A stretch of 34,450 nucleotides of DNA from Muribaculaceae bacterium (GTDB taxonomy: Bacteria; Cyanobacteriota; Vampirovibrionia; Gastranaerophilales; Gastranaerophilaceae). Under the pieces are notes generated by a model, which was given only the letters and a program-made list of their open reading frames with translations, was not told the DNA's origin and ran no database searches. Of the stretch, positions 24,420-26,278 are shown piece after piece. Numbering within the stretch: the stretch's first letter is position 1; each line of letters opens with the position of its first letter. The stretch is from positions 8,530 through 42,979 of the forward strand of contig JAMPCZ010000002.1 of NCBI GenBank assembly GCA_023665935.1, given 5' to 3'. The position numbers and the translations under genes are program-made.

Positions 24420-24656
24420 ATGTTTGATTTGTTTATACTTGAATCTTGTCCGTATTGTCAAAGAGTTATGGCTTATTTGAAAGAAAATAATATATCATTT
24501 CATAAATTTGATATTTCAAATAGAGATAACGTTCAAAAATTGCTTAAACTAGGCGGAATGGAGCAGGTTCCATTTTTATACGATGAGGAAAACGACGTCA
24601 GAATGTATGAGTCTGATGATATTATTGCTTATTTGAATAGTTTTAAAAAGGTGTAA
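24420..24656 (+). CDS. Glutaredoxin
   Basis: A 78-residue thiol-disulfide oxidoreductase. The active site is C10-P-Y-C13; the cis-proline motif is QVPFLYD, and the C-terminal DDIIAYL helix is typical. I start at the ATG at 24420, preceded by GGAGATAG, not at the longer frame upstream, whose extra 40 residues are hydrophobic, lack a ribosome-binding site and would not fit the fold. It ends 2 nt before the Hcp-like gene, so the two are co-translated. It could use glutathione or another small thiol, or thioredoxin reductase (15806), as reductant; this is unknown. Confidence 0.9.
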   Translation: MFDLFILESCPYCQRVMAYLKENNISFHKFDISNRDNVQKLLKLGGMEQVPFLYDEENDVRMYESDDIIAYLNSFKKV

Positions 24657-24658
24657 AT

Positions 24659-26278
24659 ATGAGTTTTAATTATAATCCAAAAAGTTCTTATGTTGATGTA
24701 AATGAGTGTACTTCACGCGGTGCATGCTCGATTTCGCCCTCAATTTCTGCTTTATCAGAACTGGGGATGAAGTTTTTAGAGTTTGTTTCCTATTATGTTT
24801 TAAAGCTTGAAAAACTGGGTGCGCAAAATGACAAAATGAAGCTTGAAATTATTAATACTCTTGCAAGTTTTGTGTCAATCAATGAATTCAGTGAAGAACA
24901 GTTGTTTTCACTTGTAGAACAAGCGTATTTCATGTTTAAAGAAACACAAAATACCTATAAGGATTATTGCAAACGAAACGGGATAGTTTATAAAGAACTT
25001 TCCGATAAAATTCCGTTTTCTGATAAAACGCCCCTTGCAAAAGCAATTTCAATCGGTGAAAAACTTGTTCTGAAAAGTTCCTCATCCAAAAATCAAGAAC
25101 TTAAAAACTTGATTTCTATTTTAGATATTGTGATTAAAAGTGTAAGTATAAATATAATAAAACTTACAGATTTTAACGAATTTGACACCGAAGCTGCCGA
25201 TAAAGTTTTATCAGCCTTGAATTTATTTAATCGTCGTCAAATCAGCACCGAAAAAATTTCCGGCGAAATAACTTCTCTTGCGGATTTGGATAAATCGCTG
25301 CAACTAAAGATAAGCGATAATTTATTGTCCTCGTTCGGCGGAATTTCTGAGGTAAAAGTTTCGCATTCGACAAGGGGCGGCAAGGCAATACTTGTATCGG
25401 GTAATAATTTCTTTGATTTGTTAAAAATATTGAGAGAAACTAAAAATCAGGAAATAGATATTTATACGCATTCAAATCTTTTGATTACGCACGCGCTCAA
25501 GGTTTTTCAGGAGTTTGACAACTTAAGAGGGCATTACGGTGATTTGACAGAGAGCTGCATTTTGGATTTTGCAACTTTTCCGGGTGCAATATTACTAACA
25601 AAAAACTCAAAAAATAATACTGAATATCTCTATCGCGGCAGATTGTATTCCAACGATTTTATTGTTCCAAAAGGCGTTATAAAGATTGAAGATAATAATT
25701 ATAATGACTTGATTGAGGCTGCAAAATCAGCAAAAGGTTTTTCTAAAGGTAAAACTAAACCTGATACAATTGTGGGATATGATGAAGCTGACTTGTTTGA
25801 GAAAATCGAAAACATTTTTGAACGGCTTAATGATAATGAACTTTCACGATTGTTTATTTTAGGAACCGAAGCGCACAGGTTTATACAAAAAGAATATTTT
25901 GACGAATTTTTTGAGGCATTAGCTGATGATGAATTTGTGATAAGTTTTTCTTATTCTTCGGACAAGGACCATGTTTTAACTATACCTATAGGGAACTATA
26001 TTCCACTAGGTACCGGGATATTAAATTCAATATTTAAAAACTTTTCACTACAGGATGACAGACTGCATTTTATGTTTTCGACGTGTGATGTAATGACAGT
26101 TTCAAGTATTATCAATTTGGCATCAAGCGGCGCAAGAAATATCTATATGGCTAAATGCTCGCCAACACTTGTAAATCCTTCTGTTTTTGAAACTTTCAGA
26201 CAACAATACAGTATAAAAGTTTTAGATAAAGCGGTTTCGGACTTGTCTAAAATCCGCAATGAAAAAAGCACCCAATAA
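24659..26278 (+). CDS. Hybrid-cluster-protein (Hcp)-like protein lacking cluster ligands
   Basis: A 539-residue protein whose second half follows Hcp (hydroxylamine reductase/NO-reductase) block by block: GGKAILVSGNNFFDLL, IDIYTHSNLLITHA, FATFPGAILLTKNS, LFILGTEAHRFIQKEYFDEF, SSGARNIYMAK and SPTLVNPSVFETF. In my by-eye alignment the four cysteines that ligate the hybrid Fe-S-O cluster are replaced: TNC by KNS317, GGC by GTE404, ACGK by a Ser (about 433) and GQC by a Gly (about 451). H271 remains. The N-terminal cubane motif is reduced to C17 and C23 (NECTSRGACS). The canonical reductase is thus unlikely; it may be a repurposed scaffold or hold a different cofactor. It sits 2 nt after a glutaredoxin gene. 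It could belong to an already catalogued but uncharacterised Hcp-like group. Confidence 0.8.
   Translation: MSFNYNPKSSYVDVNECTSRGACSISPSISALSELGMKFLEFVSYYVLKLEKLGAQNDKMKLEIINTLASFVSINEFSEEQLFSLVEQAYFMFKETQNTYKDYCKRNGIVYKELSDKIPFSDKTPLAKAISIGEKLVLKSSSSKNQELKNLISILDIVIKSVSINIIKLTDFNEFDTEAADKVLSALNLFNRRQISTEKISGEITSLADLDKSLQLKISDNLLSSFGGISEVKVSHSTRGGKAILVSGNNFFDLLKILRETKNQEIDIYTHSNLLITHALKVFQEFDNLRGHYGDLTESCILDFATFPGAILLTKNSKNNTEYLYRGRLYSNDFIVPKGVIKIEDNNYNDLIEAAKSAKGFSKGKTKPDTIVGYDEADLFEKIENIFERLNDNELSRLFILGTEAHRFIQKEYFDEFFEALADDEFVISFSYSSDKDHVLTIPIGNYIPLGTGILNSIFKNFSLQDDRLHFMFSTCDVMTVSSIINLASSGARNIYMAKCSPTLVNPSVFETFRQQYSIKVLDKAVSDLSKIRNEKSTQ

Follow-up and report, generated by a model that had tools for sequence, protein, structure and literature searches.

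A protein encoded directly downstream of a glutaredoxin gene in Candidatus Gastranaerophilales, here called pHcp, is best explained as a functional, cluster-free member of the fold superfamily of hybrid cluster proteins (Hcp) and carbon monoxide dehydrogenases (CODH). The window, the 34,450-nucleotide stretch of DNA that we analysed, covers positions 8530-42979 of its contig in a 2.03-Mb genome of this order. On its plus strand it carries a glutaredoxin gene (grx; 78 residues, active site CPYC) that runs from an ATG at 24420 to the end of its stop codon at 24656, followed after 2 nt by the 539-residue pHcp gene (24659 to 26278), in agreement with the preliminary description of the locus. The pair is flanked by a divergent UDP-GlcNAc 2-epimerase-like gene and the convergent rpsG/rpsL genes.

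Searches matched pHcp to the NCBIfam hydroxylamine reductase model (E 1.4e-48), to TIGR01703 (E 2.2e-48) and to the Hcp structure 8cnr in the PDB (E 8e-23). Its 56.4 bits against the Pfam Prismane superfamily (PF03063; E 2.9e-15) exceed the gathering cut-off of 27, and its score of about 165 bits lies far below the 361-367 bits of the NCBIfam Hcp equivalog cut-offs. An AlphaFold2 model computed from 53 sequences (pLDDT 88.5, pTM 0.88) is predicted to adopt the three-domain Hcp fold, with residues 1-23 lacking confident placement and residues 15-23 below a pLDDT of 50. All top Foldseek matches to this model were Hcps (E values from 1e-26 to 5e-21; TM scores of 0.61-0.80, normalised by query length), followed by CODHs, and VIA-align gave Z scores of 31-36 for Hcps versus about 18-20 for CODHs, so that Ni,Fe-CODH, at about 19, is not the best structural match in the superfamily. 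The preliminary description had aligned the second half of the protein with Hcp and proposed a structural comparison. The homology is real and far above chance, but the PDB, Foldseek and VIA-align matches extend it beyond that half, with the Hcp fold conserved over the full length.

The residues that hold the Hcp clusters are gone. We aligned pHcp to 22 complete canonical Hcps encoded in related genomes; these proteins show no variation at any ligand position (D. vulgaris Hcp numbering). The columns of the hybrid-cluster ligands His244, Glu268, Cys312 and the persulfide ligand Cys406 are occupied by Asn249 (25403-25405), Asn273 (25475-25477), Ser317 (25607-25609) and Glu404 (25868-25870), respectively, all on the plus strand as are the positions below. 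The Cys434 column corresponds to Tyr432/Ser433, with an alignment uncertainty of a residue or two, a deletion at about 451-454 removes the Cys459 column, and the Glu494 column holds Asp477. The hybrid-cluster ligand positions thus contain neither Cys nor His. Two of the four cubane cysteines are left, Cys17 and Cys23 in the motif NECTSRGAC (residues 15-23; 24701-24727), a CxxxxxC remnant of the former [4Fe-4S] motif that the preliminary description had recognised correctly. Only six cysteines occur in the whole protein (17, 23, 104, 300, 476 and 500), so a small alignment shift cannot restore the four of the hybrid cluster. That description had also named Ser317, Glu404, a Ser near 433 and a Gly near 451 as replacements for these four; the loss itself and the first two replacements hold, the third is subject to the uncertainty at Tyr432/Ser433, and the last position is a deletion. 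The lost His and Glu ligands were not on its list.

These losses extend across the family. All 68 glutaredoxin-linked rows that we aligned lack the His ligand and each of the four Cys ligands; the Glu268 column in the same rows holds Asn, Asp, Glu, Gly or Ser, and the Glu494 column mostly Asp or Asn. The main clade keeps Cys17 and Cys23; a second clade, linked to a Grx3-type glutaredoxin, does not keep both. Because the defining cluster ligands were sought and not found, we do not class pHcp as an Hcp; we place it within the Hcp superfamily as a variant.

Scanning genome contigs with the single protein found no relatives, and a profile search was required. The profile matched 324 of the order's 383 genomes, almost all of them from a single family and covering 36 of 51 genera; the count includes the divergent clades as well as one or more canonical Hcps. 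Named records among the relatives are Candidatus Gastranaerophilales or Melainabacteria metagenome-assembled genomes. For close pairs, dN/dS was 0.04-0.23 for pHcp and 0.02-0.23 for grx, so pHcp is under purifying selection; together with the near family-wide presence, this supports the earlier description of a repurposed protein. pHcp evolves fast, with 69% identity to its nearest homologue versus 91% for the flanking wecB. Some members of the genus carry a canonical Hcp as well as pHcp; in the window's genome, whose assembly is 88.6% complete, we detected no canonical Hcp.

The grx product scores 38.8 bits against PF00462 (cut-off 22.9) and carries the CPYC site, identifying a glutaredoxin domain. 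It is closest to Grx2 N-terminal/GST_N-like and YruB-type glutaredoxins, matches Pfam Glutaredoxin/GST_N_3, and lies below the curated cut-offs for both Grx2 (43.9 of 133 bits) and Grx3 (27.7 of 90 bits). A glutaredoxin gene lies directly upstream of pHcp in 29/29 loci with upstream DNA in a first locus set and in 69/71 loci of a wider profile scan that overlaps it, with about -14 to +23 nt between grx and the nearest in-frame pHcp ATG. In main-clade loci with upstream DNA, this neighbour is an orthologue of the window's grx. The search for homologues sharing the ligand loss and the neighbour, proposed at the outset, found ligand-less proteins in 68 aligned rows and an upstream glutaredoxin gene in all but two loci of the wider scan.

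Part of this coupling is synteny, since the main clade carries the pair mostly at one site, between wecB and rpsG. One locus (L114) has the pair relocated to another site. In 9 of the 69 linked loci (L153-L161), a glutaredoxin of a different subfamily, Grx3-type, adjoins pHcp at a third site, and the L153 protein reaches 90.1 bits against the TIGR02181 cut-off of 90. These nine form the Grx3-linked clade, sister to the main clade in a quick tree whose root was not inferred (99 SH-aLRT). A different subfamily at a different site argues that the coupling exceeds inherited synteny, and the two glutaredoxin subfamilies came to stand beside one Hcp-like lineage either by replacement or by independent association. 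A mirror-tree comparison of grx and pHcp, given wecB, yielded a modest partial r of 0.39, which we do not count as proof.

The pairing is not universal. No adjacent grx was found at the very divergent pHcp homologues in genomes labelled g33, g38 and g40 or at the Adamsella-type intermediates, and in g50, which has two tandem pHcp genes, grx lies on another contig. In two genomes of the same genus pHcp is cleanly absent from the wecB-rpsG site, where grx remains intact (L164:6165-6936 and L193:921-1662). We also sampled 18 genomes that gave no strong pHcp match, and each of them retains some PF00462 match. grx is therefore retained without pHcp, and main-clade pHcp rarely occurs without an adjacent grx. 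The earlier claim that the Hcp homologue is tied to a thiol redox partner stands as a real, conserved association, including in the Grx3-linked clade at another locus, and does not extend to every homologue. In most genomes of the window's genus, the glutaredoxin next to pHcp is the only one detected. The L164 and L193 loci amount to natural pHcp deletions and are useful comparators.

A monothiol CPYS glutaredoxin adjoins pHcp in three loci. The related L129 and L135 combine it with an intact pHcp that has Cys476 and Cys500. In L102 (the same locus as L010; G018:C90) it accompanies a pHcp with an in-frame stop near codon 60, so that either the two genes appear to be damaged jointly or the assembly contains an error there.

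Describing the protein as a fold without its metal site was accurate for the ligands and told half the story. Two new invariant cysteines, absent from that account, stand beside the old cluster positions: Cys476, in a Cys476-Asp477 dipeptide (26084-26089) whose Asp occupies the column of ligand Glu494, and Cys500 (26156-26158), at the Thr/Ser column of the canonical G-P-(T/S) motif. Both occur in 59/59 main-clade rows, 9/9 Grx3-linked rows and 0/22 canonical Hcps, whose residue in the Cys500 column is Thr, Ser or Asn. The few fixed differences between the main clade and canonical Hcps comprise Tyr to Cys476, Asn to His292 (25532-25534; the Asn is invariant in canonical Hcps), Glu to Asp303, Glu to Asp477 and some packing residues. 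His292 is present in 92% of the main clade and 9/9 Grx3-linked rows. The two cysteines are kept where the nearby His292 or His271 has been lost (for example L127, L137, L141, L150, L210 and L212). In the third and most divergent clade, six of the seven sampled rows have both cysteines and one has neither, a pattern that in these alignments looks like the behaviour of a pair. The predicted structure puts each cysteine after a strand (469-473 and 494-497), the two strands being consecutive in a beta-alpha-beta unit of the domain in which Hcps hold the hybrid cluster. Because Cys476 adjoins the Glu494 column, the pair probably faces the old cluster pocket. We found no statement on equivalent residues in two structural papers (PMC10210160 and PMC10502027).

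The third clade, from g33, g38 and g40 (L208-L217), consists of very divergent Hcp-like proteins of about 475-510 residues, mostly with Cys476/Cys500 and without an adjacent grx; the L208 homologue adjoins genes resembling flagellar basal-body rod genes. The tandem duplicates of g50 (L233:949-4217 and L232:417-3685) have equivalents of Cys476 and Cys500 in 4/4 copies; the first copy of each tandem retains Cys at Cys312 and Glu at Glu268, and the second has neither.

Glutathione supply was assessed from its biosynthetic genes. A gamma-glutamylcysteine ligase-type gene (GCS2) was found in 39/40 genomes and a glutathione synthetase-type gene (GSH-S_ATP) in 18/26, the window's genome included in both cases; a search for GshF returned weak partial matches only. 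We considered a link between loss of the synthetase and loss of pHcp, suggested by a genome lacking both (G013), and dropped it on finding two that lack the synthetase only (G001 and G014).

From the observed anatomy and genetic coupling of pHcp we infer a redox chemistry. We tentatively propose, as a reading that comes close to probable without reaching it, that Cys476 and Cys500 form a redox pair in the former cluster pocket, with the adjacent glutaredoxin and glutathione as its reductants. In the space that the cluster has vacated, the two cysteines would act as a redox-active dithiol/disulfide, and the product of the upstream gene, fed by glutathione, would reduce or deglutathionylate them. 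pHcp may then act as a thiol-disulfide oxidoreductase or a thiol-based redox sensor in place of the metal-based NO/hydroxylamine reductase role. A more specific version, in which the Fe-S-O hybrid cluster was exchanged for a cysteine pair recharged by glutaredoxin and glutathione that acts on or senses NO- or sulfur-derived species such as S-nitrosothiols and persulfides, is conceivable and rather doubtful. Ancestry is the sole basis for the NO-stress function raised in the preliminary description, which is not supported as stated. Two observations count against the thiol-redox reading as a whole: the CPYS glutaredoxins of L102, L129 and L135 are unable to use the dithiol route to reduce a protein disulfide, and the third clade keeps the cysteine pair without a neighbouring grx, as g50 does with its grx elsewhere.

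The same cysteines could equally bind metal. A different metal centre might occupy the old pocket, held by Cys476 and Cys500 with His292 and/or Asp303 and Asp477, for example a mononuclear Zn or Fe site or a [2Fe-2S] cluster delivered by the glutaredoxin. Canonical Hcp lacks Cys476, Cys500 and His292, all three of which are close to fixation in both glutaredoxin-linked clades; the main clade has Asp303 throughout, and certain glutaredoxins are able to carry [2Fe-2S] clusters. However, several lineages that keep both cysteines have lost His292 or His271, leaving two cysteines and acids, and CPYC glutaredoxins are usually reductases and not cluster carriers. We consider such a centre unlikely and downgrade a His292-based site in particular because His292 varies. 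Somewhat more unlikely is a pseudoenzyme that serves as scaffold or regulator by binding the glutaredoxin or a different partner, its conserved cysteines being purely structural. It would account for a retained fold from which every canonical catalytic Cys and His ligand has gone, and for the fast sequence evolution, but cytosolic proteins seldom contain structural disulfides, Cys476 and Cys500 appear together and were lost together in the one case seen, and genomes without pHcp keep grx, which makes pHcp dispensable for grx retention.

The remaining readings are far less probable. That pHcp is a genuine Hcp with misaligned ligands, or one that uses alternative ligands to build its [4Fe-4S] and hybrid clusters, draws on the Cys17 and Cys23 retained in the main clade and on Asp or Glu at some former Glu columns; it is highly improbable given six cysteines in the whole protein, two lost cubane cysteines, and the absence of the hybrid-cluster His and all four Cys from every aligned glutaredoxin-linked row. 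Most improbable is a decaying, functionless hcp copy hitch-hiking beside grx. The single wecB-rpsG site in the main clade, the absence of the gene there in two same-genus genomes and the internal stop at L010/L102 would fit decay, which is disfavoured by the low dN/dS of pHcp, the matches in most genomes of the order, the relocated pair in L114 and the second association with another type of glutaredoxin.

A search of papers available without subscription turned up neither an Hcp without its ligands nor an Hcp-like protein paired with a glutaredoxin, and to our knowledge few redox systems have been characterised in the Gastranaerophilales of animal guts. With Hcp itself (prismane, hydroxylamine reductase; TIGR01703, PDB 7de4, 8cnr and 1e1d), pHcp shares the whole-length fold (TM 0.76-0.80), conserved glycines, the YTH motif and a similar length. 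It differs in having no hybrid-cluster Cys/His ligands, an incomplete cubane motif, the new Cys476/Cys500, a score far under the family cut-off and a glutaredoxin neighbour. Ni,Fe-carbon monoxide dehydrogenase (CooS) has the superfamily fold in common with pHcp and is much more distant than Hcp, at about 630 residues versus 539. The window's grx resembles glutaredoxin 2/YruB-type and glutaredoxin 3 proteins in its CPYC site and Pfam Glutaredoxin/GST_N_3 match, but it is single-domain and under every equivalog cut-off, unlike the L153 protein at the Grx3 cut-off; we know of neither type as an Hcp partner. Degenerate Hcp-like proteins of sister families (L061-L065, Adamsella and relatives) also miss several cluster ligands; unlike pHcp, each retains some, the Cys476/Cys500 pair is complete in none of them, and a grx of the window's type adjoins none of their genes. 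Because their partial losses differ, these sequences suggest that cluster sites have been eroded repeatedly in this order. Members of the Hcp/CODH superfamily are noted for their elaborate metal clusters; a widely conserved branch that dropped them, gained a cysteine pair and became coupled to glutaredoxin in two ways would show a metalloenzyme scaffold turned into a thiol-based redox protein and, if the proposal is true, a metal-free solution within that superfamily.
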